A DNA stretch of 64,000 bases, taken from NCBI RefSeq assembly GCF_011382985.1, contig NZ_CP049933.1, forward strand, positions 744,001-808,000. The letters are read 5' to 3'. Shown one piece after another: positions 26,365-61,038 of the stretch (the stretch's first letter is position 1; each line of letters opens with the position of its first letter). This DNA comes from Leucobacter coleopterorum (GTDB taxonomy: Bacteria > Actinomycetota > Actinomycetes > Actinomycetales > Microbacteriaceae). A program made the translations under genes and the position numbers. The notes under the pieces are model-generated. The model saw only the letters and a list, made by a program, of their open reading frames with translations, ran no database searches and was not told the origin of the DNA.

Positions 26365-29079
26365 TTATCGCTTCGAGCAGGCCAGGGAGAGTGTGATCTG
26401 GCTGTCAGATCTCACCTCGGTTCCGCTGCTGGGATTGACGGCAACGACCTTGTTCTTAGACGGGTTTTGCTTGCCGCCAGCCTCACATGTGAAGTCGACA
26501 TTGGAGAATCCGGCACTGCTCAGTGTGGCCTTGGCGCTGTTTCCGGTCGCACCCACAAGGCCGTCAGGAATGGGGAAGGCTTCGCCATTACTGCGATTGA
26601 CCGTGATTCTCGAACCCAAACCAATTGAATCTCCAGCCGCAGGATCGGTTCCTGCGACCAGCCCTCGAGCGACCGAGGAATCAACCTCGCCGCCGTCGAT
26701 TACGTCGAATCCGTTTGAGGTAAGCAGTTGTCTGGCTTCCTCGAACGACTTGCCCTTCACATCGGGGACAGTCACCATCGTTTGCTGAACCGAGGTTGCT
26801 GAGGGTTCGGGAAAGGCGTCTCCGCCGTATTTTGCGTCTGCCACATTCATGGTCGCTGGCCAGATAGTTTGGTCAGCTTCCATCAAACGGTTGCCGGAAG
26901 GTCCGACAAACCCCTGAGTCGTAACCCTGCCGCAGGTGCTGGGATCTTCAGGATTGGCGCAGACCGGACCAGCATTGCCGACCCAGGTCGCGGTCGCAAC
27001 CTTGGTGCTTGCGCCCACGGTCCAGTTGTCTACAACGTCATCGGTTGTTCCGGTCTTTGCGAGGTGCGGAGTGCCGATGTTTGACTGTGCGTGCCGTGCG
27101 AGTCCATTGTTGACTGTGTACTGCAGGGCGTACGCAACACCGGCGGCGACCTCGGGACTGAGCGCCTCGCTGCACTTGCTCTTTGTGAACGCCACATCCT
27201 TGTCGTCTGCGTCAGTAATTCGATCGATCGGCATGGGGGTGCACACCTCACCGTTGCCGGCAAAAGCTGCAAACGCGGAGGCCATTGTGATCGGCGCGAT
27301 CTCGTCGACGCCACCGTATACGTTTGAAGGCACCATTGACAGGTCACGCGGCTCACCGTGGAGGGTTGGGATCTTGTTCTTGCCGACCTGGTCTTGGCCA
27401 ACGAGGCCGGCGTCTGCCTCCCCCTGGGTCCAGGTAGCCTGATCTGAGGCGCGGTGGATGCCGAGCTTCTGGGCCGTGGTGAAGGTCTCGCACAGGTCCA
27501 TCTTCTGCTGCATCGAGACGAGACCACCGTTGACCGAGTTTGCAATCGCGGTCAGTACGGGTTGGTTGCCCTTGGTGCCCTCATTATCGTTGGTGAACGC
27601 AAACGAGCCATAGCCGTAGACGCCGTCGGGCAGACAGGATGCCTGGAATGAGTTCTCTTGCACAGTGCGACCGTTGAGGTTTACGATGTCGCGCACTGAG
27701 TGACCCGTGCGGATCCACTCTGCCAGGGTGACGGGTTTGAACGTTGAACCAACCTGGAAGCCGCTTGAGCCACCATCCTCGTAATCGGTGCTGTAATTGA
27801 TCGTGGTGTAGCCGGGGTTCTCTTTCAAGAAGTCTTCGGCATTATTGAAGGGTCTGTTCTGAGTCATGGCGAGGACGCGCCCGGTACCGACCTGGACGCT
27901 AGTGGTTGCGGAGCCCACGTCAATGCCGTCCATCAGCTCCGGCACGTTTTCTCGTGTGGCCTGACGCGCTGCCCACTGCATATCGAGATCAATCGTGGTG
28001 TAGATCTTGTAGCCACCTCGACTGAAATTGAAGGCGCGCTCCTCAGGGCTCCCGCCAAACTTCGGGTCCTTCTTAATGGTGCGAACGACATAGTCGCAGA
28101 ACGCGCCGAGGCCGTAGTTCGTAGTTTCGCTCTGCTCTGCAATATTACAACCAGCAATATTCCGCTTGATGTTGGGTTTGACCTCGGTGGCAACCGCTTC
28201 GTCGTGCTGGGCCTGAGTGATCTTGCCCGTGCGCAGCATGCTGCCCAGAATCTTGTCGCGACGCATCTTGTTGTCGGGAATGTTTTCAGGGACGTCGATC
28301 TGCAGCTTGCTGGGGTTGTTGACCGTAGCGATGAGGCTCGCGGCCTCAGCAAGGGTCAAATCCTTAGCCGACTTATTGAAGTAGAAGTTGGCGGCTGATT
28401 CGATGCCGTAGACCTTGCGACCGAAGAGCGCGATGTTGAGGTACCCGAGCAGGATCTCGTCCTTCGAGTACTTCTTCTCGATGCTGATCGCGTACTTCAT
28501 CTCCTTCAGCTTGCGATCGATGCTGTCCTTCATCGCGGCCTTGTACTTTGCCTTGCTCTCTTTCTCATCCGGGATCGCGAGCGCTTCCTGGATGAGTACA
28601 TTTCTCACGTACTGCATCGTGACCGTTGAGGCACCCGAGTACCCGGTGCCCGCTGCGTTCTGAAGCACTGCACGACTCGAAGCCAAGACGTCAACACCGC
28701 CGTGAGTGTAGAAGCGCGGATCCTCCTCCGCGACAGTCGCGTCTTTTGCGTACTGCGAGATGTCTTCCCACTTCACCGTCTTGCGATCCTGGTCGTAGAA
28801 CGTCGCAAGCTCCACGTCACCCTCAGGAGATGACGCGTAAAGCGTCGAAGGCTCAGCGAGCTGACCGGGGTTCAGATGGTTTGGCAGCTTCTCGAAGATA
28901 TCTACCGCGGTCGTTGCCGCCATGCCGCTTAAGGCTACGACGGGCGTGACTGCTGCGGTCACGAGAACGCCCGCAATGAGACACATTGCGATGGCTCCAA
29001 TGATGCCGCCGAGGGCATTTCCGGCTGAGCGAGGCTTCACCGTCCGGGCGCGCGAAGACTGAGATGTCCGTTGGGTCAT
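26365..29079 (-). CDS. Class A penicillin-binding protein with PASTA domains (copy A)
   Basis: A bifunctional peptidoglycan synthase of 904 residues, PonA2 type. It has a cytosolic tail, one membrane helix at about 25-55, a glycosyltransferase domain with the catalytic Glu in EEDPRFYTHGG, and a transpeptidase domain with active-site Ser in GSTFKP, then SVN and KTGTTDD. Two PASTA domains follow at about 755-825 and 830-900. It lies upstream of the phosphoesterase gene in one operon. A paralogue of the same design sits 0.8 kb away (29899-32597). Confidence 0.95.
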   Translation of the reverse strand: MTQRTSQSSRARTVKPRSAGNALGGIIGAIAMCLIAGVLVTAAVTPVVALSGMAATTAVDIFEKLPNHLNPGQLAEPSTLYASSPEGDVELATFYDQDRKTVKWEDISQYAKDATVAEEDPRFYTHGGVDVLASSRAVLQNAAGTGYSGASTVTMQYVRNVLIQEALAIPDEKESKAKYKAAMKDSIDRKLKEMKYAISIEKKYSKDEILLGYLNIALFGRKVYGIESAANFYFNKSAKDLTLAEAASLIATVNNPSKLQIDVPENIPDNKMRRDKILGSMLRTGKITQAQHDEAVATEVKPNIKRNIAGCNIAEQSETTNYGLGAFCDYVVRTIKKDPKFGGSPEERAFNFSRGGYKIYTTIDLDMQWAARQATRENVPELMDGIDVGSATTSVQVGTGRVLAMTQNRPFNNAEDFLKENPGYTTINYSTDYEDGGSSGFQVGSTFKPVTLAEWIRTGHSVRDIVNLNGRTVQENSFQASCLPDGVYGYGSFAFTNDNEGTKGNQPVLTAIANSVNGGLVSMQQKMDLCETFTTAQKLGIHRASDQATWTQGEADAGLVGQDQVGKNKIPTLHGEPRDLSMVPSNVYGGVDEIAPITMASAFAAFAGNGEVCTPMPIDRITDADDKDVAFTKSKCSEALSPEVAAGVAYALQYTVNNGLARHAQSNIGTPHLAKTGTTDDVVDNWTVGASTKVATATWVGNAGPVCANPEDPSTCGRVTTQGFVGPSGNRLMEADQTIWPATMNVADAKYGGDAFPEPSATSVQQTMVTVPDVKGKSFEEARQLLTSNGFDVIDGGEVDSSVARGLVAGTDPAAGDSIGLGSRITVNRSNGEAFPIPDGLVGATGNSAKATLSSAGFSNVDFTCEAGGKQNPSKNKVVAVNPSSGTEVRSDSQITLSLACSKR

Positions 29080-29190
29080 AGAATCTAGGGTAAGCGAAGC
29101 TTGCTGACAATTCAGCTAGGTGGAGAAATCAACTGGTTCTATCCAGGTTTCTCCGCGCTTATTTGTTCGTCTATCGGAGAGGATCCGCAC

Positions 29191-29898: not shown

Positions 29899-32597
29899 TT
29901 ATGGCTTCGAACACGCGAGCGTCAGCCTGATCTCTTGGCTGAACGGGACCTCCGAGCCACTCGCTGGATCGACCGAGACCACCTTGTGCTTGCGCTTATC
30001 GGCCTTCCCGCCAGCCTCGCAGGAGAAGGTCACTGAAGAGAACCCTGCCCCGCTGAGTGCGGCCTCCGCACTGCTTCCGGTCTCGCCAACGAGGCCATCA
30101 GGTATCACTGAAGCCTGGCCATTGCTTATAAAGAGGGTGATGCTTGATCCGATAGCGACGGTGGCGCCAGCCGCGGGTTCGGAGTTTGCTACTTGACCCT
30201 GCGGCACCGAGGAATTGACCTCTCCGCCGTTCACGGGAGTAAAACCAACGTGCGTGAGCATGGCGGCGGCCTCGTCGTAGCTCTTGCCCCGCAGATCCGG
30301 GATCTGGGCAGTGTTCTGGCGCACGGATGCGCTTGACGGTTCAGGGAACGGGTCTCCGCCGTACTTGGCATCAGCGACGTTCATGGTGGCTGGCCAGATG
30401 CGCTGGTCGGCCTCCATCAGCAGGCCCCCTGAAGGACTTAAGAACCCCTTCGTGGAGACACGATTCCAAGTACCATCGGCGCCCTGAGTTGGGCCCACGT
30501 TACCAACCCAGGTTGCCGTAGCAGCTCTTGTGCTCGCACCAACGGTCCAGTTATCGACCACATCGTCGGTGGTGCCAGTCTTAGCAAGATGCGGGATACC
30601 GAGCGAGGACCTTGCATGATCGGCGAGACCATTGGTCACTGTGTATTGGAGCGCATAGGCCACACCCGCAGCAACCTCGGGGCTAATCGCCTCCTTGCAC
30701 TTTCCCTTGGTGAACTCAACCGGTTTGTCGTGAGCGTCAAGAACCTCATCGATGGGGGAAGGCTCACAGACGACACCATCGGCAGCAAACGCGCCGAAGG
30801 CCGAGGCCATCGTGAGTGGCGCGATCTCGTCGACGCCACCGTACACGTTCGAGGCCGCAAGCGTAAGTTCGCGGGCGCCTCCGTTGAGTGTGCGGTTGAT
30901 ATTCTTGCCGACCTGGTCTTGAGTGGTTCGTCCTTGATCGACGTCTTCCTGCGTCCAAGTTGGCTGATCGGACGCGCGATGGACACCAAGCTTTTGAGCC
31001 AGACCGATGGTGTCACAGATGTCCAACTTCTGCTGCATGGAAACGAGCCCGCCGTTGATGGAATTGGCGATCGCCGTAAGAACGGTTTGGTTGCCTCTGA
31101 TGCCTTCATTGTCGTTGGTGAAGGCGAAGGACGCACCCCCGTAGACCTCACCAGGGAAACAGGAGGCCCTCAACGAGTTTTCTTGCACCGTGCGACTGTT
31201 GACGTTTACGATGTCACGCACGGAGTATCCGTTGCGGAACCACTCCGCGAGAGTAAACGGCTTGAAGGTCGAGCCGACCTGGAAGCCGCTTGAGCCGCCA
31301 TCTTCGTAGTCGGTGTTGTAGTTAACCATCGTGAACCCAGGATGGGCCTTCAAGAACTCGTCGGCGTTGTTGTAGGGCCGATTCTGCGTCATGACGAGTA
31401 CACGACCCGTGCTTGGCTCGATACTTGAGGTCGCAGAACCCACGTTGATGCCCTCCATGAGCTCGGGAACATTCTCTCGGGTCGCCGTACGCGCGGCATC
31501 CTGCATCTCAAGGTCGATTGTGGTGTAGATCTTGTAGCCACCGCGGCTGAAGTTGAAGGCCCGCTCTGCCGCGGACTTTCCAAATTTCTCATCATTCTTG
31601 ATGGTGTTGAGTACGTACTCGCAAAACGCGCCAACACCGCGACGCTGCTCAGCCACGAAGCATCCCGGCTCACGCGGGGTAATATTCGGCTCGATCGGGG
31701 TTGCGACGGCATTGTCAAACTGCGCCTGCGTAATCTTGCCGTGCTTCAGCATGCTCGCCAGAATCTTGTTGTCGCGGCGTTCTTTGTTCGCAGCCCTATA
31801 CTTGGGAATATCGATCTGCAGGCGGCTCGGGTTGTTGACCGTTGCGACTAGGCTGGCTGCCTCTGCCAGCGTCAGATCTTTGGCTGATTTACCGAAGAAG
31901 TAATTTGCCGCCGACTCGATGCCGTACACCTTGCGCCCGAATAGGGCGATGTTGAGATAGCCGAGCAGAATTTCGTCTTTGGAATACTTCTTCTCAATGC
32001 TAATCGCGAGGCGCATCTCCTTGAGCTTGCGCTCGGGAGTATCGGCAGTAGCCTCTTCGTAGGCGGCGTCGCTTTCGTTCTCGTCGGGAATGGCGAGGGC
32101 ATTTTGAATGAGCACGTTTCGCACGTACTGCATCGTGATCGTTGAGGCACCCGAGCGTCCGGTTTTCGACACGTTCTGCAGAGCGGCGCGGGCAGAGGCG
32201 AGCAGATCAACGCCACCGTGAGAGTAGAAGCGGGGATCTTCTTCAGAGACCACCGCGTCTTTGACGATCTGGGGAATCTCTTCCCATGTCAGGGTCTTGC
32301 GATCCTGGTCGTACACAACCGCGATCTCCTCATAAACATCATCAGCATTCTTTGCAAGGAACGTCGACGCTTCAGCGAGCTGCGAGGGTTGAGGTGATTC
32401 GGGAGTTTTTCGAAGATATCGACCGCCGTTGTCGCCGCCATTCCGCTCAGCGCCACAACCGGTGTGATGGCTGCTGCCACGAGCACACCCGCGACCACAC
32501 TCATGGCTATGGCACCGAAAGCCCCACCAAGGCCGCCCCCGGCTGAGGGAGGTTTCACTGATTTTGTCTGCGATGACTGAGGAGTCCTTTGGGTCAT
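29899..32597 (-). CDS. Class A penicillin-binding protein with PASTA domains (copy B, apparent frameshift)
   Basis: It has the same architecture as copy A: cytosolic tail, one membrane helix (VAGVLVAAAITPVVALSGMA), glycosyltransferase (EEDPRFYSHGG), transpeptidase (GSTFKP, SIN, KTGTTDD) and two PASTA domains. The frame breaks at the G3 run 32386-32388, just after LPNHLNP; one added base gives 899 residues from the ATG at 32597. That start matches copy A (MTQRT). The two copies are closely similar throughout and share upstream sequence, so they are a duplication. acs lies about 100 bases upstream on the same strand. Confidence 0.92.
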
Positions 32598-32694
32598 GGG
32601 ACATCAGGCTAAGTTAGCTTGCTGACAAAAATGGTGAGTCTGAGTAAACGTTGCGCATCTACTCAGGTTTCTCAACTCAGCCGGAGACCGCGGG

Positions 32695-41543: not shown

Positions 41544-42166
<623 letters not shown>

Positions 42167-50135: not shown

Positions 50136-51518
50136 CTACTGTGTCGCTCGAGGATCCTCGAACGGTGTCTTACGCGGAATCAATGCCACGGCAAAGGCTG
50201 CGACGAGCGCCACGATACCGAAAGTGATGAAGTTCCATTCGGTACTCACCTGCATTGAAGACAGCCAGCCGCCCACGACCGGACCGAGGATCGCGCCGAC
50301 GCGCGCGAAGCTGAGTGCCCAGCCTGTGGCGGTTGCTCGCATGAAACCCGGGTAATAGTCGGCGATGTATCCAGTTAGCACGAGCGATGTTGAGATGGAT
50401 CCCACCCCGGCGAGACCCACAAGGGTCATCGTCAGGAACAGCGAGTGCGGGAACATCATCAATACACACGCGGCTCCGCCAACGAGGTAAAACACAATCA
50501 ACACTGAACGCTGTCCGAAGCGGTCGGCGAGTGCGCCAAGGATAAGTCCGCCGACCGCTGCCGACAGGCTGAACACCAGTAAGAACGTGAGCGCCTGTCC
50601 CATTTCATAGCCAGCCTCGCGCATCACGTTTGGCAGCCAATTGTTGAGACCGTAGACGAGTAGCATGCCGCAGAAAAGTGCAATCCAAAGTGGGATCGTT
50701 GAACTTAGATACCGCAGTGAGAACAGTAGGGACAATACCCTCTGCCAAGGAGCCTGCGTCGAAGCGCTCTCCTTTGGTGCTGGCGCAACTGGGTCGTAGG
50801 GCGTAATTTTGAGTTTTTCCGCGAGTTTCTTTGCCCGATCCTGCAGACCGCGAGCTTCCAGGGACTCCAAGGATTCCGGTAAGAATATGGCGATGACGGG
50901 GATCAATAACACAGGAACTGCACCGAGGCCCACGATCCAGCGCCAGGCGTCTTGGTTTTCGACGAGCACGGTATCGCCGATCGTTGCTGGGAACTGCGCA
51001 AAGACCGCGGTACCCACGAGCGCTGCGGCAACGATGCCGAGTGAGTATGCAGAGAACATGATCCCGTAGTTCAGAGAGCGACGTTTCGGTTCGGAGAATT
51101 CAATGGTCATTGCGGCCGCTACGGGGATCACGCCGCCCATGCCGAGCCCGCCGATCAATCTGTAGAGCCCAAACATGTCGGGGGTTGTTGCGAACGCGGC
51201 CCCAAGCTGGGTGAGTGTGTACAGCGCCATCGAAACGAGAAGCATGTTCTTGCGGCCGAATCGATCGCTGAGTGTGCCGATAACGAGGGCACCGATCAAC
51301 ATGCCGACGAGCGCGTATGCGGCGAGGCCACCGAGTTGCAGCGGATCTGGCGGACCCCACGGCGCATAGGTTTTGAGCGCCGGGATGATCACTCCCAGTA
51401 CGCCAATGTCGTAGCCCTCAGAGAGCGTCGCGAGCCAGCAGCAGATGAGAACGCCGAGAGTGACTCTGCGCGGAACGGGCCAGTGGGTTGCGGGGGCGGT
51501 TTTTTCAGTGGTAGACAT
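50136..51518 (-). CDS. MFS aromatic-acid:H+ symporter (AAHS type)
   Basis: From the ATG at 51518 (CAAGGAG 6 bases upstream) it is 460 residues with 12 predicted helices. Diagnostic motifs are an acid in helix 1 (EGYDIGVLGVI), the loop 2-3 motif LSDRFGRKNMLL and its repeat LADRFGQRSVL in the second half. It is the last gene of the cupin-ligase-hydroxylase-permease run, so uptake of an aromatic acid such as 2-aminobenzoate or salicylate is inferred. Confidence 0.9.
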   Translation of the reverse strand: MSTTEKTAPATHWPVPRRVTLGVLICCWLATLSEGYDIGVLGVIIPALKTYAPWGPPDPLQLGGLAAYALVGMLIGALVIGTLSDRFGRKNMLLVSMALYTLTQLGAAFATTPDMFGLYRLIGGLGMGGVIPVAAAMTIEFSEPKRRSLNYGIMFSAYSLGIVAAALVGTAVFAQFPATIGDTVLVENQDAWRWIVGLGAVPVLLIPVIAIFLPESLESLEARGLQDRAKKLAEKLKITPYDPVAPAPKESASTQAPWQRVLSLLFSLRYLSSTIPLWIALFCGMLLVYGLNNWLPNVMREAGYEMGQALTFLLVFSLSAAVGGLILGALADRFGQRSVLIVFYLVGGAACVLMMFPHSLFLTMTLVGLAGVGSISTSLVLTGYIADYYPGFMRATATGWALSFARVGAILGPVVGGWLSSMQVSTEWNFITFGIVALVAAFAVALIPRKTPFEDPRATQ

Positions 51519-51561
51519 CGTTGTCTCCTTGTGTCGGAACCGTTGTGGTGACAGGCAGGTT

Positions 51562-51607
51562 CGCCAGTGTCCGTCGACTAGTTTGGGGCCGTCGACAGAC
51601 ACTGGCG
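51562..51607. terminator. Intercistronic hairpin between permease and hydroxylase
   Basis: A 17-bp stem with one mismatch (51562-51578 with 51591-51607) and a 12-base loop. There is no T run on the minus strand, so it may protect the mRNA or attenuate permease expression rather than end transcription. Confidence 0.55.
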
Positions 51608-51617
51608 GTCGTAAGTT

Positions 51618-53998
51618 TTAGACGTTGACGGTGCTGCCGTACACCGCGGGTGTCCAGCGACGGTGCGGGTACTCGTGGCTCGCTTGCGGATCACGAATCA
51701 GCGACAGCCTGGGGCGGATCGCGTCGGTGCGTGAGCTCGGCGGCTTACGTGATCCTGCCCGGTACTGGGGAATCCACTCGGCACCTTCGCCGCGGTATCC
51801 AAGGTCCGCCGCCGCATGCAGGGTCCAGTGCGGATCAAACAGATGCGTTCGACCAAGTGCCACGAAATCCGCGCGACCCGCGACCAGGATCGAGTTCACA
51901 TCGTCGTAGGACGAGATCGCCCCGACCGCAATCACGGCGACGCCAGCGGCTTCGGCAACTCGGTTGCGGATCGCGTCTGCAAACGGTGTCTGGTAGCTGC
52001 GGCCGAAGACGGGTTTCTCCTCTGACGTGATCTGACCCGAGGAGACATCGATTGCATCTGCGCCGTGCTCAATAAATGCCCCTGCAATTGCGACCGCGTC
52101 ATCGATGGTGTTGCCGCCCTCGATCCAGTCAGTTGCCGAAAGGCGCACGGTGAGAGGGCGCTCAGCTGGCCAGGCGGCGCGCACCACGTCGAACACCTCC
52201 AGCGGGTAGCGGAGGCGGTTTGCGAGGCCGCCACCGTATTCGTCGCTGCGTTTGTTAGAGATGGGCGACAGGAAAGATGAGAGCAAGTAGCCATGTGCAG
52301 CATGCACCTCAAGCAGGTCAAAGCCAGCAGCCGCTGCTCGTTTGGTTGCCGCTACAAACTCATCGCGCACCTGATCCATGTCGTCCCGATCCATTTCGCG
52401 CGGTGTCTGGTTTGCCGAGCTGTACGGGATTGCTGAAGCAGAAACGAGAGGCCAGTTGCCATTTTCGAGGGGTTGATCGATGCCCTCCCACATGACGCGC
52501 GTGGATCCCTTTCTGCCAGAGTGGCCGAGCTGAACTCCAATCTTCGCGGTGGAGGTGTCGTGCACATAGTTGACGACGCGTGACCATGCAGTGCCCTGCT
52601 CATCTGTATAGAGCCCGCTGCAGCCCGGTGTGATGCGTCCTTCCGATGAGACACAGACCATTTCGGTCATGACAAGTCCGGCACCCCCTGTGGCGCGGGA
52701 ACCTAGGTGTGCGAGGTGGAAGTCGCCGGGCAGTCCGTCGATCGCTGAATACATATCCATCGGTGACACGATGATGCGGTTCTTTAGCTGGAGCTGCCCA
52801 ATGCTGTGCGGCCGGAACAGTGGGGGTTCATCTTCGGTGCGGCCTGGGCCAGCAGACTCAAGCACGCGCTTCGCAAACTCAGGATCGCGCAAGCTAAGGT
52901 TCTCGAGGGTGATGCGACGACTGCGCGTCAGGAGGTTGAACGCAAACTGCAGAGGATCCTGACCTGCGTACTGGCCAATGTTCTCGAACCACTCCATCGC
53001 TGCCTGCGCGGCGCGCTGCAGTGAGGCGGCAACCGGGCGCCGCTCGGTCTCGTAAGCAGTGAGGGCCGATTCGAGTGTCGAGTTCTCGTGAATGCAGGCT
53101 GCGAGCGCGAGAGCATCCTCCATTGCGAGCTTGGTGCCCGAACCGATCGAGAAGTGTGCGGTGTGTGCTGCATCGCCTAGGATGACGAGGTTTTGGTAGT
53201 GCCATGCCTCCGCGCGCACCACCTGGAAGTTGATCCATTTCGAGTTGTTCGCGAGGGTGTCCGCTCCATCGAGAATGTCGGCGAAGTAGTGCTTTATCTT
53301 GGCGATTGCCTTTTCGTCGCTGACCCCGGGAGGAAAGATCTCGTTTTCGGTCTCGTCAAAACCCGCGGCGCGCCATACATCCTCGTGCATCTCGATGAGG
53401 AAGGTGCTGCCCTTGTCAGAGTAAGGGTAGCCGTGCAACTGCATGACACCGTGGGGAGTGTTTTGCACGTCGAAGGTGAATGCCTCAAACACGCGGTCGG
53501 TGCCGAGCCAGATGTACTTGTTGACGCGGCGATCAAGAGTGGGCTTGAAGTGCTCTGCGAACTGGGTGCGCACGAACGAGTTGAGGCCGTCGGCGGCTAA
53601 TACGAGGTCGTAGTCGCGCATGAGGTCGGCGGCATCAGGGGCGAGTGTGCTGAAGTGGATCTTCACTCCGAGTTCTTGGCAGCGATCCTGCAATAACATG
53701 AGTAATTCTTTGCGGCCCATGGCAGCAAATCCCTGGCCGCCGATTGTAAAGGTTTCGCCGCCAAAGCGAATGTCGATGTCGGTCCAGCGAGCAAACTGCT
53801 CGCTCATTCGCTGAGCGATGACGGGATCGGCGTTTTCGATCCCCCGAGGGTCTCGTCGCTAAACACGACGCCGAAGCCGAACGTGTCGTCTGCAGCGTTG
53901 CGTTCCCAAATGGTGATGTCGTGGCTGGGGTCCAGCTGCTTCATGAGTGCGGCGAAGTACAGCCCACCGGGGCCGCCGCCAACAATTGCTACTCGCAT
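51618..53998 (-). CDS. Bifunctional flavin hydroxylase / old-yellow-enzyme reductase, 2-aminobenzoyl-CoA or salicylyl-CoA 5-hydroxylase type (apparent frameshift)
   Basis: The N-terminal half is a class A flavin monooxygenase: [19 protein letters not shown], a DG motif in [13 protein letters not shown] and [16 protein letters not shown]. From about residue 390 an old-yellow-enzyme domain follows ([54 protein letters not shown]). This fusion matches Azoarcus 2-aminobenzoyl-CoA monooxygenase/reductase and salicylyl-CoA 5-hydroxylases. The frame breaks at the C5 run 53841-53845; one added base gives 793 residues, the size expected for an 85-kDa enzyme. It follows the CoA ligase by 30 bases, which would supply its thioester substrate. 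Confidence 0.9.
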
Positions 53999-54028
53999 GA
54001 TGTTCTCCTTAGATTGTTGGGAAAGAGT

Positions 54029-55666
54029 TCAGTGAGTTGAAACGGTCGCCAGTTCGGCGGCAACCCGGTCACGCAACACAAAGTGCTGAACTTTTCCACT
54101 GGGGTTTCGGGGCAGCTCGTCGACAAAGTCGATGCGCCGGGGGCACTTGTAGATCGCCAAGTTCTCTTTCACGTGTGCCTTAATCGACTCTGTGATCTCT
54201 TCAGATTCGGCGACACCGTCGCGCAGCACCACAAAGGCGTTAACGATGACGCCCCTGGCTGGATCCGGTCGCCCAATCACGGCGCACTCAAGCACCTCGG
54301 GATGTGTTTCCACAACCTCTTCGACCTCGGGAGCACCGATGTTGTACCCGGCCGCGATGATCATGCTGTCGGTGCGTGACTGATAGAAAAAGTAGCCGTC
54401 CTCGTCCATCAAGTAGGCGTCACCGGTCACGTTCCAGCCGTTCACCACGTAGTTCTTCTGGCGTTCATCATTGAGATAGCGGCACCCGGTTGGGCCAACC
54501 ACGGCGAGCCGTCCAACCTGGCCGGGTGGCAACTCATTACCGTCATCGTCGAGCACCGTGGCTCTGTACCCAGGGACCGCTTTGCCGGTGGCGCCTGGAC
54601 GAATGTCATCGCCCGCAGCCGAGATAAACACGTGCAGCATTTCCGTTGATCCGATGCCATTCACGAGTTTGAGGCCAGTTGCCTGCCGCACGGCTTCGAA
54701 CGTTTCCTTGTTCAGGTGTTCGCCGGCTGATACGGCGACACGCAGCTTCGCAAGCTCACTCGCTTTGCCTTCTTTAAGGGCGGTGCGGTAGCCCGTCGGG
54801 GCCGTGTAGAACACGGTAACCCCAAAATCTGTGATGAGGTCAGCGAGTTCCATCGGGCTCGCTTTTTCAAGAATGACCGAGCTGCCTCCTGTGCGAAGCG
54901 GAAACACGACGAGCCCGCCAAGACCAAAAGTGAAGGCGAGCGGTGCGGTGCCAGCCGTCACGTCCTCTGGTGTGAGTTTCAGGATGTGTTTAGCGAAAGT
55001 GTCTGCGTTCGCGAGAATATCGCGGTGAAAGTGCATGGTGACTTTGGGCTCACCCGTTGTACCCGATGTGGCACCGAGCAGTGCCACGTCGTCGGCTGCC
55101 GTTTCAACGGCCGCGAATTCGCCACTCTTGGTCGCGCACGCAGCCATGAGTGTGTCATCGTCACCACCCAGGACTGCGATAGGGGTGCTGCCAAAGACCT
55201 CCGACATCTTCGACATTGCTCGATGGTCGATGATGGCTACATTGGGGAGCAGCTTTTTGGCAACGTTACGCACCTCGCGCTTGCGCCAGGCGACCATGGT
55301 CGTTGCGACAATGCCGCCCGCCTTTATGATGCCGAGCCAGCAGGCGACGGTCCAGGCGTTGTTGGGGGAGCGAAGCAACACTCGATTGCCGGGTATTAGG
55401 CCGTAGTCTTCAGTGAGTACCTGGGCGACCTGGTTGGCGCGCTTTTGTAGATCGCCGTAGGTCCAGGTCTCGGCACCCGGCACGCGAATGGCAAGATTGT
55501 CGCCACCAAACTTGCGCACGCCCTCATCGATGAGTTCTTCGGCGGCGTTGAGCTTGGTGGGGTACTGAAGCTCAGGAAGTGAAAATTCGAAGTTTGGCCA
55601 GCTGGCCTGCGGTGGGAGTGATTCTCGAGCGAAGTGGTCAGTGTAACCGGATGGGGAAAGCTCCAT
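54029..55666 (-). CDS. Benzoate / 2-aminobenzoate-CoA ligase family
   Basis: This AMP-forming ligase has 545 residues, close to benzoate- and 2-aminobenzoate-CoA ligases. ATP site: LGATSGTTGEPKVTMH; then GIGSTEMLHVFISA, NGWNVTGDAYLMDEDGYF and the C-terminal lysine in PRNPSGKVQHF. FYTAPTGYR lies in the aromatic-acid pocket region. It is encoded between the cupin and the hydroxylase in the same direction. Which acid it activates cannot be read from the sequence; 2-aminobenzoate is favoured by the RidA-family gene in the cluster. Confidence 0.88.
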   Translation of the reverse strand: MELSPSGYTDHFARESLPPQASWPNFEFSLPELQYPTKLNAAEELIDEGVRKFGGDNLAIRVPGAETWTYGDLQKRANQVAQVLTEDYGLIPGNRVLLRSPNNAWTVACWLGIIKAGGIVATTMVAWRKREVRNVAKKLLPNVAIIDHRAMSKMSEVFGSTPIAVLGGDDDTLMAACATKSGEFAAVETAADDVALLGATSGTTGEPKVTMHFHRDILANADTFAKHILKLTPEDVTAGTAPLAFTFGLGGLVVFPLRTGGSSVILEKASPMELADLITDFGVTVFYTAPTGYRTALKEGKASELAKLRVAVSAGEHLNKETFEAVRQATGLKLVNGIGSTEMLHVFISAAGDDIRPGATGKAVPGYRATVLDDDGNELPPGQVGRLAVVGPTGCRYLNDERQKNYVVNGWNVTGDAYLMDEDGYFFYQSRTDSMIIAAGYNIGAPEVEEVVETHPEVLECAVIGRPDPARGVIVNAFVVLRDGVAESEEITESIKAHVKENLAIYKCPRRIDFVDELPRNPSGKVQHFVLRDRVAAELATVSTH

Positions 55667-55712
55667 TGCTTATCCGTGCTTCCTAATAGATGTGCAGGTC
55701 TCTAATGGGGTG

Positions 55713-55742
55713 GTTGGTCGGCCTCAGGAAAGGCCGACCAAC
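55713..55742. terminator. Hairpin between cupin and CoA ligase genes
   Basis: A perfect 12-bp stem (GTTGGTCGGCCT at 55713-55724 with its complement at 55731-55742), loop CAGGAA, directly after the cupin stop. Without a T run it could reduce read-through into the ligase gene or stabilise the 3' end. Confidence 0.5.
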
Positions 55743-55745
55743 GCG

Positions 55746-56207
55746 CTATGCGCGGCGGTATCCCTCAAGCTCCGAGTCGGCGACATCAGGCAGGTCGAAC
55801 ACGATGTTGTCGGGGGTGCGGGCGGTCAGCCAGATGAGTTCGTCGGTTACCGACATATTGACTTCAACGTGGGGCATGAACGGGGGAACCCACACCCAGT
55901 CGCCAGCCTTCATGTCGACATAGGTTCTGAAGCCCTCGCCAAAGTAAATGCGACCATGGCCGCGCAGCACGTAGCCGCCTGTTTCTGCTTCACCGTGGTG
56001 ATGGGGTAGGGAGCGGTATCCTGGCTTGTTTGAAACCTGACCGAACCAGATCTTGGTGGCTTCGGTGTGCTGCGGGCCTACGCCAGTGACCCGAATGCAG
56101 TCTCCCGAAGACAGCGTCCGGGTGTCTTCTTCGCCCGAACGGGTGACCTGGGGAACCTTGTCCCAGCGCAGATCTTGCTCGGCAACAACCGCTGAAGGTG
56201 ATGACAT
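55746..56207 (-). CDS. Single-domain cupin, candidate dioxygenase
   Basis: This 153-residue protein has both cupin motifs intact: PHHHGEAETGGYVLRG supplies HxH and Glu ligands, and GDWVWVPPFMPHVEVN supplies the second His. It is first in the run that continues with the CoA ligase, the hydroxylase and the permease. Gentisate dioxygenases are about twice as long, so it is not a standard one; its size is nearer to 3-hydroxyanthranilate dioxygenase. A ring-cleavage role on a 5-hydroxylated product is inferred. Its promoter region carries the cluster operator-like motif. Confidence 0.8.
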   Translation of the reverse strand: MSSPSAVVAEQDLRWDKVPQVTRSGEEDTRTLSSGDCIRVTGVGPQHTEATKIWFGQVSNKPGYRSLPHHHGEAETGGYVLRGHGRIYFGEGFRTYVDMKAGDWVWVPPFMPHVEVNMSVTDELIWLTARTPDNIVFDLPDVADSELEGYRRA

Positions 56208-56290
56208 ATTTACTCTCCTTTGAATTGATTACTGGTGGTGAACGCTCAAAACGAGACAGGTCTCTTCGGTGAGGTGAAAATTATCCCGCT

Positions 56291-56326
56291 TATGTCATTA
56301 TGGTGACGTTCGTTACGTTGAACGTA
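56291..56326. promoter_or_regulatory. Operator-like motif upstream of the cupin gene
   Basis: TATGTCA at 56291-56297, then a dyad TGACGTTCGTTA at 56304-56315 (pattern TnACGnnCGTnA). It is overlapped by a perfect 13-base palindrome TACGTT-G-AACGTA at 56314-56326. The first two elements recur with the same spacing at 58201. Candidate PaaX site; promoter boxes here are ambiguous. Confidence 0.5.
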
Positions 56327-56376
56327 TATTGAAGATTACCTCTGCGACGTTCGGGTGTCAAAGGAAAACCTAAAAT

Positions 56377-57269
56377 TTATGCATGCCGGATCATGCCCTC
56401 CTGTAGAACTGTTGCGACAAGGTCGCCCTGTTCTGAGTAGAAGCGACCAAGGTTGAGGGCTCGACCCCCCTGTGCCCCGGCGCTTTCCTGTGCATATAGG
56501 AGCCACTCGTCGGCTCGCGCGGGCTGGTGGAACCACATGCTGTGGTCGAGGCTTGCCGTGACGAGCCCGGGGGAGGACCAGTTCAGGCCGAGTGCTCGCA
56601 GTGAGGGCTCGAGGATTGTGTAGTCGCAGACGTAACTGAGGGCGATCTGCTGTGTGCGTGCATCGTCGGGTAGCTTGTCGAAGGCACGGATCCAGACCCC
56701 CTGCTCGGGCGCATTTTCTGACGAATTTGTGTACACGGGATTGGGTGCATGGCGTATGTCGAAGCTGCGGCCGCGCGACCAGTAGTCACCCTCGGGTGAG
56801 GATCCCGCATTGCGTGCGTCGAGATAATCGGCGGAGCTTGGGAGGGTGCCCGGTGTTGCGTAGTTAGGTGCTGTGGGGCGTAGCTGTTCCCTGTCTCGGG
56901 GGCCTGAAACGAGGCCGTGGTAATAAATACCACCTTGCCGCCCTGGTAACCCCGTACGTGGCGCGTTGAGTAGCCGCGACCGTCGCGCAGCAACTCAACC
57001 TCGTAGCGCACGGGCTCGCCGATTTCGACGGGGCGCAAAAAGGAGCTGTGTAGTGAATGCAACCCGCGATCATCGCCGATTGTCGCGATCGCGGCGGCGG
57101 CGGCCTGAGCTACGGAATCGCCCCCGTAAGCCTTTGGCCACGGTACGTACTGCGGCATGGCGGTGAATGCTCGATCAAACACCTCTGGCTGTGTTTCTTT
57201 GAGTTGGATCGCCGCGAGGAAGCGTTGTGAATCGGCGCGATTCTCGCGGGTGATTGGGGGGTGGCTCAT
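56377..57269 (-). CDS. Acyl-CoA thioesterase, TesB type (apparent frameshift)
   Basis: A double hot-dog thioesterase. N-terminal half: YVPWPKAYGGDSVAQAAAAA, LHSLHSSFLRPVEIGEPVRYEVE. C-terminal half: LNWSSPGLVTASLDHSMWFH with the catalytic Asp region. The frame breaks at the C3 run 56889-56891; one added base gives 297 residues, the usual TesB length. GGAGAACAAG precedes the ATG at 57269, 13 bases after the FAH-family gene. In this setting it would release the hydroxylated aromatic acid from CoA. Confidence 0.87.
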
Positions 57270-57282
57270 CTTGTTCTCCTTT

Positions 57283-58128
57283 TTACACTGACTCGCTGCT
57301 GGGTAACCGCATCCGGTTGCGCAGTGTGCCAATGCCTTCGATGTGTGTGGTGAGAACCTCACCGTCATGCAGCCAGCGCTGCGGATTCCTTCCCAATCCC
57401 ACCCCACCCGGAGTCCCAGTCAGCACGATATCGCCGGGCCTGAGTATGGTGAACTGGGACACATAGGAGATAAGGGTGGCTGAGTCAAACACGAGTTCTC
57501 GTGTGTTGCTCAGTTGCACGACCTCACCGTTAATATCTGCGCGGATCTCGAGCCCGTCTTTCGGGGAGATCTCGTCGGCCGTCACAATGAACGGACCGAG
57601 AGGTGTGGTGTTATCCCAGGCTTTGCCCTGGAACCACTGCAGTGTGCGGGATTGCCAATCCCGAGCTGACACGTCATTGGAGGTTGCATAACCCAGGATC
57701 GCGTTTGCCGCCTCGGCGGGAGTGGCGCGCTGAACCGGGGAGCCAACGATAACCGCGAGTTCGGCCTCCCAGTCAACCTTGTGCGACCCGGTGATCGTGA
57801 TGTCGGCATCAGGGTCGGTCAGTGTGTCGGCGAACTTTGCGAACAGTGTTGGGAATATCGGGATCTCGCGCTTCGCCTCGATGATGTGGTCGTGGTAGTT
57901 CAGGCCGCAGCACACGATCTTGGCTGGGTGCTGAACCGGGGTGAGCATTGTGGCCTTATCTTCTGCGATGCGTTGGCCTGTGGTGCGCGCGACATCAATC
58001 CCGTTTCGCCAATCGGGGTTGGCTACGAGCGCGCCGACATCCGCAGCATCAAGCAGAATCCAACTGTCGCCTTCGCGCAGGGCGGCCCTGGTTTGTTTGT
58101 TGGGCAGGCTAAGTGTTCCTAAGTGCAT
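57283..58128 (-). CDS. Fumarylacetoacetate-hydrolase-family protein
   Basis: From the ATG at 58128 it has 281 residues. FAH-fold metal ligands appear in VDWEAELAVIVG and in the NDVSARDWQ segment; GKAWDNTTPLGPFIV and LTGTPGGVGLG are family hallmarks. Family members cleave C-C bonds in 3,5- or 2,4-diketo acids such as fumarylpyruvate or maleylpyruvate, which fits the last step after ring cleavage of a gentisate-like compound. Forms a two-gene unit with the thioesterase gene, divergent from the RidA-family gene. Confidence 0.9.
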   Translation of the reverse strand: MHLGTLSLPNKQTRAALREGDSWILLDAADVGALVANPDWRNGIDVARTTGQRIAEDKATMLTPVQHPAKIVCCGLNYHDHIIEAKREIPIFPTLFAKFADTLTDPDADITITGSHKVDWEAELAVIVGSPVQRATPAEAANAILGYATSNDVSARDWQSRTLQWFQGKAWDNTTPLGPFIVTADEISPKDGLEIRADINGEVVQLSNTRELVFDSATLISYVSQFTILRPGDIVLTGTPGGVGLGRNPQRWLHDGEVLTTHIEGIGTLRNRMRLPSSESV

Positions 58129-58200
58129 CATTGCTCCGAAAGGTAGGTGGGGTGGGGTTTTGAGGGTGCCGCAAATCAAACCGCGCGAAAACACCCCAAG

Positions 58201-58226
58201 TATGTCAGAATGTTCACGAACGTCAC
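58201..58226. promoter_or_regulatory. Operator-like motif between divergent FAH-family and RidA-family genes
   Basis: TATGTCA at 58201-58207 and the dyad TCACGAACGTCA at 58214-58225, the same two elements and 6-base gap as at 56291. It lies centrally in the 165-base divergent promoter region, a good place for a regulator controlling both transcripts. Candidate PaaX site. Confidence 0.5.
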
Positions 58227-58293
58227 AAGTGCGAGATGTGTATCTCAATTGATTCGGGTTCAGAGAATCCGTCACCATGAAAAGGAGACAGTG

Positions 58294-58694
58294 TTGTCCA
58301 CACAGGTCATTAACCCCCGCAGCTCTGCAAGCCTGTTGGGTTTGCTCACGGAGTGAAAGCCGGTCCCTTCGTGTACCTTGGCGGGCAAACCGCGCTTGAT
58401 GCTGACTACAAGATTGTTCCAGGCGGGATCATCGAGCAGTTCGTGCAGGCTTTCGGTAATGTGCTTGCCACTCTCGAGCACGCTGGAGGTAAGCCGAGCG
58501 ATCTCGTTGACGTGACCATCTACCTCACTGACGTGGAGGACTACCAGCGAAACGGCCGCGAGATCGGTAAGCTGTGGCGTGAGATGGCGGGCACGGAGTA
58601 CCCGGCAATGGCGGGTATCGGCGTGACGAAGCTGTGGCAGCCCGAGGCGCTGATTGAGATCCAGGGTGTTGCCTACATCGCCGGTGAATCATAG
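58294..58694 (+). CDS. RidA-family protein lacking the catalytic arginine, putative deaminase (apparent frameshift)
   Basis: The TTG at 58294 has AAAGGAG 6 bases upstream and gives STQVINPPQL after restoring one base at the C5 run 58314-58318; the corrected protein has 133 residues. It follows the YjgF/Rid pattern (PFVYLGGQTALDADYKIV, NVLATLEHAG, VTIYLTDVEDY), but where canonical RidA has RSxVxV it has PAMAGIGV, so the key arginine is missing. 2-Aminomuconate deaminases of aminoaromatic pathways belong to this superfamily. A role in imine/enamine hydrolysis during aminoaromatic breakdown is inferred. Confidence 0.85.
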
Positions 58695-58847
58695 AAGGTT
58701 GGTCTGCGCCGACATTCTGACCACACGCCGCGGGGCACGATCTCAAGGCTAGCTGTTTCTGAAATGATCACATCTGGACGACTGGGTTCAAACGTAGCGA
58801 GCCCAGTGGGTTGAACTCCCGGTGAAATCAAGCAGAACAGGACGCCA

Positions 58848-59669
58848 ATGAGTCCCAGTACTTCAAGGACACTCCTTGTGACTCTGATTGGCGCGTTCGC
58901 GAGGCGGACCGGAGACTGGTTGTCAATCAAGGGCGTTGTCGGACTACTTGAAGAACTAGGTATTGACGACTCAAGTACACGCACCGCAGTTTCCCGTTTG
59001 AAGAAGAAGGGGTGGCTCGCTCCCGAAAAACGCGATGGCAGAAGCGGTTATCGACTCACTGAATTGGCAAAACAGTCATTCGCCTCTGGAGACGCGGTGA
59101 TCTGGCACGCTCGGCAGCCCGCGCGCCTTGAAGATGGCTGGTGTATCGCGACATTCTCGGTGCCTGAGCAGCAACGGGCCAAACGACATCTGCTGCGCTC
59201 TCGCCTCGCGGCTCTAGGATTTGGCAACGTCGGTCAAGGATCTTGGATCGCCCCAGCCCGCATGGCGGCAGATGCACTTGAAATCATCGACGGGCTTGGG
59301 CTGACGGACTACACCAACATTCTGGTTGGACGTCATGCGGGTGGGCAGGATCTCGCCCGTATGGTTCGCGAGAGCTGGGATCTTGAAACGATTGAAGCGG
59401 GATACCGTAACTACATTTCTCGACATCAGCTTGGCTTCCAGGCGCTGTTGAGGCAGTTTGACGGTGATGTGCCTCCGCGTGAGAGCTACATTCACTACCT
59501 TCGTGCCCTAGACGACTGGCGCGTGCTGCCGATGCGCGATCCAGGTTTGCCGCGAGAGTTGCTCCGAAGCGATTGGCCGGGAGATCCTGCAACGAAGCTT
59601 ATCGAGGAGATTGTGATGCAGCTCGAAGATTCCGCTCTCGTGTTCGTGCGTGAGGCACTTGGGAGCTAG
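58848..59669 (+). CDS. PaaX-family transcriptional regulator
   Basis: This 273-residue protein has a winged-helix N-terminus (TLLVTLIGAFARR, SSTRTAVSRLKKKGWL) followed by the PaaX central and C-terminal domains (WCIATFSVPEQQRAKRHLLRSRLAALGFG). PaaX represses phenylacetate genes and is released by phenylacetyl-CoA, so an aryl-CoA produced by the nearby ligase is a natural inducer candidate. It lies downstream of the RidA-family gene in the same direction and probably controls the whole island through the motifs at 56.3 and 58.2 kb. Confidence 0.92.
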   Translation: MSPSTSRTLLVTLIGAFARRTGDWLSIKGVVGLLEELGIDDSSTRTAVSRLKKKGWLAPEKRDGRSGYRLTELAKQSFASGDAVIWHARQPARLEDGWCIATFSVPEQQRAKRHLLRSRLAALGFGNVGQGSWIAPARMAADALEIIDGLGLTDYTNILVGRHAGGQDLARMVRESWDLETIEAGYRNYISRHQLGFQALLRQFDGDVPPRESYIHYLRALDDWRVLPMRDPGLPRELLRSDWPGDPATKLIEEIVMQLEDSALVFVREALGS

Positions 59670-59697: not shown

Positions 59698-60950
59698 CTA
59701 GGCTACACGAGCCGCGATATCGGTTCGGTTCTGCGAGCCCTCAAGTTTGATCTTGTCAACCGCCTCATAAGCGCGAGAGCGAGCCTCGGCGAAGTCCGTA
59801 CCGCGCGCCACAACTCCGAGCACACGGCCACCGGTTGCGATCCACTCGCCGTCACTCCCGCGGGCGGTCGCGGCATGCACAGTGTGAACACCGGGCACCT
59901 GAGCAGCCTGGCTCAGTCCGCTGATCACCCGGCCAGCCGTAACCTTGCCGGGATAGCCTTCGCTGGCGACTACCACGATAACCGCGGGATCCGTGGCGAA
60001 CTCCGGCTCAGGCTGCTCGGCGAGCGCTCCGGTTGCTGCCGCCAGCAGATACTGGCTGAGAGGAGACTTGAGCCTCGCGAGAACAACCTGGGTTTCGGGG
60101 TCGCCGAAGCGTGCGTTGAACTCGATAACCCTGACGCCGTTCTCCGTGACAATGAGACCGCAATAGAGCAGTCCGATAAAAGGAGTCCCCTCGGCCTCAA
60201 GCTGACGGATAGTTGGAATTGCGACGGTGCGTGTGATCTCTTCGACGAAGTCTGCGGCCACCCAGGGGAGCGGTGAGTATGCTCCCATACCCCGGTGTTT
60301 GGGCCTTCGTCGCCGTCGAAGATTCGCTTGTAGTCCTGTGCCGGACTGAGGGCGACAACATCGTGTCCGTCAGCGAAGAAAAAAAGTGACACCTCTTGGC
60401 CGTCGAGAAACTCTTCTACAAGCACGTCACCGTAAGGTGACCATGTCGCAACGTGGTCTAGCGCAGCCTCCCGATCCGTTGTGACCAGCACTCCCTTGCC
60501 CGCGGCGAGCCCATCAGCCTTCACGACGTAGGGAGCACCAAAGTCGTCAAGTACAGAGCCCGCTGTTTCGGCGGAGTCCACACGCGCGGCGCGGCCTGTT
60601 GGCACACCGGCAGCATCCATGATGCGCTTTGCGAACGCCTTTGATCCTTCAAGAGCCGCCGCATCCTGATTTGGACCGAACACCGGAATGCCGGCGGCCC
60701 GCAGCGGGTCCGCAACCCCGGCTACGAGTGGCGCCTCGGGGCCGATGACCACAAGATCGAAGCCGCGATCCTGAACGAACGCCGCCACTGCCTCGGGATC
60801 TGTATACGCAAGCTCGGGTGTCTCCACCCCGCTCGCGGCGATGCCTGCATTACCGGGGGCGCACACAACTTCGTGGGCCGCCTCCTCGGAGAGCAGGGAA
60901 AGAACAATGGCGTGTTCGCGGGCACCGGGGCCCAGCACGAGTATCTTCAC
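59698..60950 (-). CDS. purD: Phosphoribosylamine-glycine ligase (apparent frameshift)
   Basis: This is the second step of purine synthesis, an ATP-grasp enzyme. GTG 60950 gives KILVLGPGAREHAIVLSL; VVIGPEAPLVAGVAD, KADGLAAGKGVLV and, after the break, GLLYCGLIVTENGVRVIEFNARFGDPET follow. The frame breaks at the C4 run 60290-60293 in PNTGGMGAYSPLP; one added base gives 417 residues, the usual size. It is convergent with the PaaX-family gene, 28 bases apart. Confidence 0.94.
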
Positions 60951-61038
60951 CGCTCCAGAATACTGGTTTGTGTCGGTGAGTGTGGATAGCGCGTTGGTCA
61001 CCTCCATAAGTGGCGGTCTGCCGCATTATGATGGGGAT

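Follow-up and report, generated by a model that had tools for sequence, protein, structure and literature searches.

A gene island of Leucobacter coleopterorum was analysed within a window of 64,000 nt, the whole stretch of DNA under study (NZ_CP049933.1, assembly GCF_011382985.1, positions 744,001 to 808,000). The island, at window positions 50136–59669, encodes a permease, a fused FAD monooxygenase/old yellow enzyme (OYE) reductase of the 2-aminobenzoyl-CoA monooxygenase/reductase (ACMR) type, a coenzyme A (CoA) ligase, a one-domain cupin, a TesB thioesterase, an FAH-family hydrolase, a Rid-family protein and a PaaX repressor. The set is a mobile one and is also found on plasmid pAL1 (NC_009453.1) of Arthrobacter sp. 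Rue61a. The balance of probability lies narrowly in favour of reading the island as an anthranilate cluster of the 2-aminobenzoyl-CoA type, with the cupin, the FAH protein and TesB in place of the β-oxidation module and with succinate and pyruvate as the predicted end products. A more detailed form of this reading is put forward tentatively, at somewhat under an even chance: a Rid protein without the canonical arginine would deaminate a dearomatized CoA thioester, a small cupin of a new kind would act as a β-keto-thioester dioxygenase, β-oxidation would take no part and the cupin/FAH module would have been swapped several times into ACMR lineages.

Proposed route

The ligase would convert anthranilate to anthraniloyl-CoA, an activity demonstrated for the pAL1 homologue only. 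Using O2 and NADH, ACMR would then form 2-amino-5-oxocyclohex-1-ene-carbonyl-CoA, as established for the Azoarcus enzyme, and the Rid protein would hydrolyse this enamine to NH3 and 2,5-dioxocyclohexane-carbonyl-CoA. The cupin is proposed to open the cyclic β-keto thioester with O2 at C1–C2 in the manner of Dke1, giving 2,4-dioxoheptanedioyl (succinylpyruvoyl)-CoA, from which TesB would release succinylpyruvate and CoA; the cupin and TesB could act in either order. The FAH protein, judged by its kinship to 2,4-diketo acid hydrolases, would finally split succinylpyruvate into succinate and pyruvate. Import is assigned to the permease and control to PaaX, both putatively. Each gene would thus have a task, an isomerase would be unnecessary and the products would be central metabolites. 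The mass balance was checked by hand: C7H8O4, the formula of cyclohexanedione-carboxylate, plus O2 gives C7H8O6, which plus water gives succinate and pyruvate, NH3 having been lost at the Rid step.

Gene content and genomic setting

Pfam and NCBIfam scans of the window recovered all eight genes that an initial annotation of this DNA had named, each at its coordinates.

50136..51602, minus strand: MFS permease of the aromatic acid:H+ symporter type (Pfam MFS_1; best NCBIfam match TIGR00895 at 261.6 bits, cut-off of 418.55 not reached)
51618..53998, minus strand: fused FAD monooxygenase/OYE reductase of the ACMR type (Pfam FAD_binding_3 and Oxidored_FMN; frame-broken)
54029..55666, minus strand: AMP-binding CoA ligase, putatively of the anthranilate type (62% identity to the pAL1 ligase)
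55746..56207, minus strand: one-domain cupin of 153 residues with a complete 3-His/1-Glu motif (H69, H71, E75, H113), putative ring-opening dioxygenase
56377..57269, minus strand: TesB-type acyl-CoA thioesterase (Pfam 4HBT_3 and Acyl_CoA_thio; frame-broken)
57283..58131, minus strand: FAH-family C–C hydrolase, putative acylpyruvate (succinylpyruvate) hydrolase (Pfam FAA_hydrolase, 8.2e-68)
58314..58694, plus strand: Rid-family protein of a group without the RidA Arg105 (Pfam Ribonuc_L-PSP, 4.9e-20; 5' end frame-broken)
58848..59669, plus strand: PaaX-type repressor (Pfam PaaX, PaaX_M and PaaX_C; TIGR02277 at 147.1 bits, under the cut-off of 264.55)

The cluster sits between a gene for an AHSA1-domain protein and purD. 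A congeneric genome matches the window in gene order over purF, purD, the AHSA1 gene, purC, purS and purQ; its purD lies in one frame, and the gap of ∼600 bases between purD and the AHSA1 gene contains no match to the cluster. The cluster ligase was found in four of 60 family genomes, its own included. Because the cluster is absent from this collinear site and its ligase is confined to few genomes of the family, the eight-gene set is an island, as had been claimed. The accompanying claim that β-oxidation genes are missing held as well: with a Paracoccus β-oxidation-type pair as the sole queries, no match to an enoyl-CoA hydratase or acyl-CoA dehydrogenase was obtained in the window.

Co-occurrence of the gene families

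Relatives of the cupin (E up to 1e-10) were found in 26 of the 297 genomes of the order, including that of the window. For this order sample, 20 kb were fetched around 20 cupin matches in 19 genomes. All 17 strong matches have ACMR, TesB, FAH, RidA and PaaX within the same 20 kb, and 14 also have the ligase; the three weak matches (L043–L045) lie outside any such cluster. The cupin-type cluster is present in 17 of the 297 genomes beyond the window's own. In a collection of named genomes, 485 of 562 candidate stretches encode a cupin relative, and 79 loci, chosen by cupin, were kept. These contain the hydroxylase (78), TesB (77), FAH (77), the ligase (77), RidA (74), PaaX (69) and the permease (33); in L062 and L085 most cluster genes are missing within the stretch. 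The association of these genes is far beyond chance.

Among plasmid records, 126 hold a cupin relative, which in 18 records reaches at least 60% identity. Clusters of the cupin type recur in Actinomycetota and occur also in Alphaproteobacteria (L049 and L050). Three loci of the series L052–L130 have two cupins and two ligases (in the order RidA, cupin, ligase, ACMR, FAH, cupin, TesB, ligase), which suggests tandem or merged cluster copies. No gene fusion hinting at the order of the steps was found in loci L026–L148.

Modules behind the fused enzyme

ACMR is present in 48 of 396 Actinomycetota genomes (own included), and 32 of these 48 were examined (30 fetched, the window and L040). The cupin module was found in three of the 32 loci, an enoyl-CoA hydratase and/or acyl-CoA dehydrogenase in 26, neither in three and both in none. 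A further 23 loci came from plasmids, five picked by cupin and 18 by hand from 94 ACMR records; seven have the cupin module, 14 the β-oxidation module and two a gentisate-dioxygenase-like bicupin, and none has more than one. Cupin and β-oxidation modules did not occur together near ACMR (0/32 phylum, 0/23 plasmid and 0/77 named loci), and the Paracoccus hydratase/dehydrogenase pair had no match within 8 kb of ACMR in any of the cupin-type loci examined (3, 7 and 77, respectively). Fisher tests (p = 0.004 and 0.00015) are descriptive only; the loci are related.

An ACMR tree of 66 rows was built by a quick method with SH-aLRT support; one of the 67 loci, whose piece fell short of 600 residues, was left out. 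The cupin label changes at least four times on this tree, and the two alphaproteobacterial cupin cases stand isolated among proteobacterial β-oxidation types. The window ACMR groups with those of Microbacterium and Herbiconiux inside the clade that contains pAL1. Since the modules were not found together and the label changes repeatedly on the tree, the downstream modules appear to have been swapped behind one upper pathway. What follows that upper pathway looks like three exchangeable modules: β-oxidation, cupin with FAH, and bicupin with FAH.

TesB was present in 77 of 77 cupin-type named loci, as against 0/26 and 0/14 β-oxidation-type loci, and because it is confined to the former, the thioesterase belongs to the cupin module in Actinomycetota. 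In the two cupin-type loci from Alphaproteobacteria, a 4HBT-type enzyme takes the place of TesB. In Ruegeria pomeroyi (L132, 13538–13990), a β-oxidation-type cluster has a different cupin of 150 residues between the acyl-CoA dehydrogenase and the ligase; its similarity to the window cupin is weak over the portion of the alignment shown.

Reductase motif and bicupin clusters

The HxxHGY motif of the OYE half comprises the two substrate-binding histidines of YqjM-type enzymes. It is intact in the window ACMR (HAAHGY), and HxxHG is kept in all 91 readable cupin-type ACMRs (92 with a match), in 34 of 40 β-oxidation-type enzymes and in one of three unclassified enzymes. Bicupin-type ACMRs have QxxHG in six of six cases and HxxH in none, these six (four Novosphingobium records, one Cupriavidus and one Caballeronia) representing about two lineages only. 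As an aromatic 5-hydroxy intermediate would not need HxxH, its retention suggests that the window-type cluster acts on a dearomatized ring.

The bicupin-type loci are those of Cupriavidus taiwanensis (L133), a plasmid of Caballeronia sp. SBC1 (L226, 2700–15086) and Novosphingobium (L144 and L227–L229); two came from the plasmid set and four were fetched afterwards. Their bicupin has 375 residues and is akin to gentisate and 5-aminosalicylate dioxygenases, although under the cut-offs of those models. A nitrilase-family match was found in five of the six stretches, and the Caballeronia locus also encodes an Asp/Glu racemase family protein (Pfam Amdase), a PF04199 cyclase and indolepyruvate oxidoreductase-like proteins. 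None of the six bicupin loci gave a Rid match above 70 bits, and no nitrilase match of that strength was found in 80 + 24 cupin-type stretches. When two bicupin loci were scanned at a looser limit, one gave a weak Rid match; the weak Rid-like match beside ACMR in L144 has Pro where RidA has Arg105.

Cleavage of 5-hydroxyanthranilate at C1–C2 should give a carboxamide, requiring an amidase and not a Rid protein, and breakdown of the free compound would need a maleate isomerase in addition. The chemistry of free 5-hydroxyanthranilate probably belongs to the bicupin clusters, which may be the true 5-hydroxyanthranilate route.

Rid protein

A Rid protein is encoded in 3/3, 7/7 and 74/77 cupin-type loci and in 24/26 and 13/14 β-oxidation-type loci. 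Because it is common to both types, it would act before they part, and its substrate is probably the product of the fused enzyme itself. The initial annotation had placed Rid after the cupin; its equal frequency in β-oxidation-type clusters, which have no such cupin, speaks against this order. Enamines are the kind of compound that Rid proteins hydrolyse. The Azoarcus ACMR product, 2-amino-5-oxocyclohex-1-ene-carbonyl-CoA (PMC4539516, PMC3534580), is an enamine.

The window Rid protein has Met at the position of Arg105, and Arg was found there in none of the 122 Rid proteins of these clusters. The residue is hydrophobic in 121 of 121 proteins of the two module types (29 Met, 4 Ile, 2 Val and 2 Leu in 37 β-oxidation types; 77 Met and 7 Leu in 84 cupin types). 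Loss of the arginine would suit a thioester, which offers no free carboxylate, as the substrate; it could instead mean another function. In comparison with RidA and 2-aminomuconate deaminase, the window protein belongs to the same Pfam family and would likewise deaminate an enamine in an aromatic pathway; it differs in having Met, or in its relatives another hydrophobic residue, in place of Arg105.

Cupin and FAH protein

H69, H71 and H113 of the cupin are invariant in alignment A4, a pattern shared by many non-oxygenase cupins. None of the NCBIfam families matched the window cupin at E up to 0.001. It is a single domain of 153 residues and thereby differs from the gentisate 1,2-dioxygenase family TIGR02272, whose members have two domains and ∼340 residues. 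Searches of solved structures gave no close relative of the cupin. Its best profile match among solved chains is an oxalate decarboxylase (E = 1.3e-4), with cupin phosphoglucose isomerase also among the nearest. Dke1 is described as a 3-His cupin of 153 residues that cleaves cis-β-keto-enolates with O2 (PMC4019311). The window cupin resembles it in its small single domain and in the histidine pattern, which many other cupins also have, and a β-keto-enolate substrate is proposed for it; Dke1 chains did not appear in the PDB sequence searches made with it.

Among NCBIfam models, the FAH protein best matches one for 2,4-diketo acid hydrolases (192.6 bits; cut-off 500), its second-best solved match, 8GSR, has the same activity, and its kin include L-2,4-diketo-3-deoxyrhamnonate hydrolase. 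H81, E84, E121, E123 and D152 are invariant in the 17 rows of alignment A3; they form the H-x-x-E pair and the E-x-E...D metal residues that mark acylpyruvate hydrolases of the FAH superfamily. With 2,5-dioxocyclohexane-carbonyl-CoA as the starting point, FAH kin that include splitters of 2,4-diketo acids, and a complete cupin motif, oxygenation at C1 with C1–C2 cleavage would be the only simple path to an acylpyruvate.

Substrate and its supply

The best solved relative of the window ligase, in a search of solved structures by sequence, is the anthranilate–CoA ligase 4WV3, which points to a putative anthranilate-type CoA ligase. The pAL1 ligase gene is reported to confer anthranilate–CoA ligase activity on Escherichia coli extracts, with formation of anthraniloyl-CoA, and Rue61a to grow on anthranilate and not on 5-hydroxyanthranilate, gentisate or salicylate, 5-hydroxyanthranilate being converted by cometabolism only (PMC3534580). 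In cells grown on anthranilate, anthraniloyl-CoA was accompanied by two further CoA esters, those of C7H7NO3 and C7H8O4 (PMC3534580). Anthranilate arises in tryptophan breakdown, and anthranilate-forming genes lie near such clusters: quinaldine genes on pAL1, alkylquinolone (aqd) genes in Rhodococcus erythropolis BG43, and genes for tryptophan dioxygenase and a kynureninase-like enzyme in Rhodococcus qingshengii. The window's own genome encodes a kynureninase above the family cut-off. The 62% identity to the pAL1 ligase, the relation to 4WV3 and these upstream genes support the anthranilate substrate and CoA activation proposed in the initial annotation.

Two other readings were discarded. A Rieske anthranilate dioxygenase as the main route gave a weak partial match only (99.6 bits; cut-off 671.9), and a homogentisate-type reading found no PF04209 match.

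Beside the cupin-type cluster, a thiamine diphosphate (ThDP) enzyme was noted in 29 of the 79 loci, a PF04199 cyclase in 21 and both in 20 (L065, L066, L126 and others of L052–L130; also L137); perhaps they are an isatinate decarboxylase and isatin hydrolase that feed anthranilate into the pathway. Indolepyruvate:ferredoxin oxidoreductase-like genes lie beside some clusters (L049, 2030–5735; L141, 1–2516; L226, 2700–6376; L048, 17859–18408), and for L049 and L226 no CoA ligase is listed in the stretch. These genes might convert isatinate directly to anthraniloyl-CoA.

Alternative routes

In the initial annotation, ACMR was taken to form 5-hydroxyanthraniloyl-CoA, from which TesB would free 5-hydroxyanthranilate for cleavage by the cupin, deamination by Rid and hydrolysis by FAH to pyruvate and a C4 acid. 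A thioesterase is indeed in the cluster, a single cupin domain can serve as a ring-cleaving dioxygenase (PMC10306065), Nocardia opaca reportedly uses 5-hydroxyanthranilate (PMC4539516), and Rue61a shows a hydroxyanthraniloyl-CoA-like mass besides its cometabolic conversion (PMC3534580). Against this stand the reported failure of Rue61a to grow on 5-hydroxyanthranilate or gentisate (PMC3534580), the Rid proteins of clusters without such a cupin, and the reductase motif kept in 91 of 91 cases. The amide expected from 1,2-cleavage would also find no amidase or maleate isomerase in the window cluster, unlike in the bicupin stretches (nitrilase family in five of six, Asp/Glu racemase family once). 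The motif, the non-growth and the missing amidase speak against free 5-hydroxyanthranilate before ring opening, and we regard this route as improbable. Hydrolytic ring opening after the Rid step, with FAH as a β-diketone hydrolase, the cupin as an isomerase, hydratase or decarboxylase, and 4-oxopimelate or its CoA ester as the product, is unlikely but deserves somewhat more weight. It would suit a cupin whose nearest relatives are oxalate decarboxylase and cupin phosphoglucose isomerase, with no sequence kinship to dioxygenases, and FAH enzymes as a family hydrolyse C–C bonds beside carbonyls. However, 4-oxopimelate would have to be processed by additional CoA-dependent enzymes that the cluster does not encode, and the nearest named kin of the FAH protein include 2,4-diketo acid hydrolases, whose substrates could arise from this ring only by oxygenation at C1.

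A salicylate route via salicylyl-CoA, gentisyl-CoA and, after thioesterase action, gentisate, with a gentisate dioxygenase encoded elsewhere, is very improbable. CoA-dependent salicylate pathways (Streptomyces sdg; Rhizobium ceh) have a CoA ligase, a 5-hydroxylase, a thioesterase, ring cleavage and an FAH-type hydrolase, as in the window; they use a gentisate dioxygenase and are not known to involve a Rid protein. Their existence, with mention of SdgC (PMC6460240, PMC13215587), and the call of the window ACMR as NCBIfam NF006101 'salicylyl-CoA 5-hydroxylase', at 1079 bits barely over the cut-off of 1078, favour this route. In the whole genome, however, no match to TIGR02272 was found at E up to 10. 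No control genome of 14 exceeded the cut-off, but the divergent bicupin of L133 matched the model at 5e-93, so an L133-like bicupin should have been detected. The search for a gentisate 1,2-dioxygenase thus agrees with the initial annotation in disfavouring gentisate, Rid would have no task on this route, and the ligase groups with proven anthranilate ligases; the salicylate/gentisate reading was rejected for the missing TIGR02272 match and the ligase grouping. The pAL1 enzyme likewise scores above the cut-off of NF006101, although its host is reported not to grow on salicylate (PMC3534580). That enzyme (L046, 17026–19419) also lies next to an anthranilate-active ligase, and the label 'salicylyl-CoA 5-hydroxylase' on such fused enzymes is a probable mass misannotation.

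Several observations weigh against the proposed route to succinate and pyruvate, all of whose steps past the ligase are predicted. The cupin has no meaningful sequence similarity to known ring-cleaving or diketone dioxygenases in searches of solved chains, and the arginine lost from the Rid protein is described as the determinant of deaminase activity (PMC5619798). The bicupin-type FAH protein fits the 2,4-diketo acid hydrolase model about equally well (193.7 bits), so FAH kinship cannot separate succinylpyruvate from maleylpyruvate. HxxH is absent from six of the 40 β-oxidation-type and two of the three unclassified ACMRs, and the bicupin comparison draws on few lineages. Rue61a has another ligase/ACMR locus on its chromosome and can use anthranilate for growth even when the plasmid is absent (PMC3534580), so its growth and CoA-ester data are not assignable solely to the pAL1 cluster. 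The formic acid quench may also be the source of the C7H8O4-CoA signal, the enamine being unstable below pH 5 (PMC3534580). With regard to gene content, a single stretch among 80 of the cupin type gave an acyl-CoA dehydrogenase match at a looser limit. SDR genes, which are superfluous to the model, are also present in both alphaproteobacterial loci with the cupin module, and a gene annotated as nitrilase-related adjoins the cupin-type cluster of Tsukamurella. In genome G686 neither cupin nor FAH is adjacent to the cluster; the cupin lies elsewhere in that genome, where FAH was not sought.

Relation to described systems

The lower anthranilate cluster of pAL1 (ligase ARUE_113p00220, ACMR ARUE_113p00230) encodes the same enzymes and PaaX, with RidA divergent from the FAH...ligase–ACMR run. 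The window differs in having TesB between FAH and the cupin, an MFS permease after ACMR and a single PaaX in place of the two on pAL1. In the accessible part of the report on pAL1, only the ligase is assayed, and the cupin, FAH, TesB and Rid are given no role (PMC3534580). The Azoarcus evansii 2-aminobenzoyl-CoA pathway (abm) has the CoA ligase and the fused monooxygenase/reductase in common with the window; its cluster reportedly also encodes a Rid-family 'translation inhibitor'. The window shares the upper half of that pathway and not the lower half: the Azoarcus route continues via β-oxidation enzymes, as a proposal (PMC4539516), in place of which the window has the cupin, FAH and TesB. Bicupin clusters share the fused enzyme, a thioesterase and FAH with the window and differ in having the bicupin instead of the one-domain cupin.

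The initial annotation had called the route undescribed. This holds for the lower steps within the literature searched, where no paper was found that gives the cupin, FAH, TesB or Rid a role in anthranilate breakdown or that assays, in whatever organism, a step following the fused enzyme, most subscription journals lying beyond the search; it does not hold for the CoA-thioester route of anthranilate in Arthrobacter, which is already published. CoA-thioester degradation of anthranilate, the ligase and the fused enzyme are known, and the putative lower half of cupin, FAH and TesB would be new. A catabolic-pathway tool of 2022 omitted the tryptophan route via anthraniloyl-CoA monooxygenase/reductase 'due to a lack of knowledge' (PMC9007349). 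If true, the proposed route would give the carbon of tryptophan and quinolones a complete, testable path, cupins a new activity, namely dioxygenation of a cyclic β-keto thioester, and the Rid group without the canonical arginine a defined task.

Frame breaks and assembly quality

Three cluster genes are broken between frames. The break in ACMR lies near 53840–53858, and its two-frame pieces are 69% and 89% identical to the pAL1 enzyme; that in TesB lies within 56751–56940, with pieces 51% and 54% identical to pAL1 TesB; that at the 5' end of RidA lies near 58310, the protein being 74% identical to pAL1 RidA. The ACMR and RidA breaks fall where five G or C stand in a row. Splits between frames likewise affect tmk (window 41550–42127) and purD (window 59698–61007), each of which the genome has only once, and rpoB of the same genome is a single open frame. 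The assembly is one contig, yet its completeness is estimated at 89.6%.

A decaying, non-functional copy of the cluster would account for breaks in three of its eight genes, and the cluster is patchy, as the distribution of its ligase in the family shows. However, the sole tmk and the sole purD are broken too, so that the breaks resemble sequencing indels; both frames flanking each break are still well conserved, and the low completeness despite a single contig adds to this. Sequencing indels are the likelier cause of the three frame breaks, and decay in this strain is accordingly held to be improbable.

Elsewhere in the window, adjacent minus-strand open frames of ∼900 codons each (26368–29115 and 29902–32613) have similar end residues and may be paralogues.

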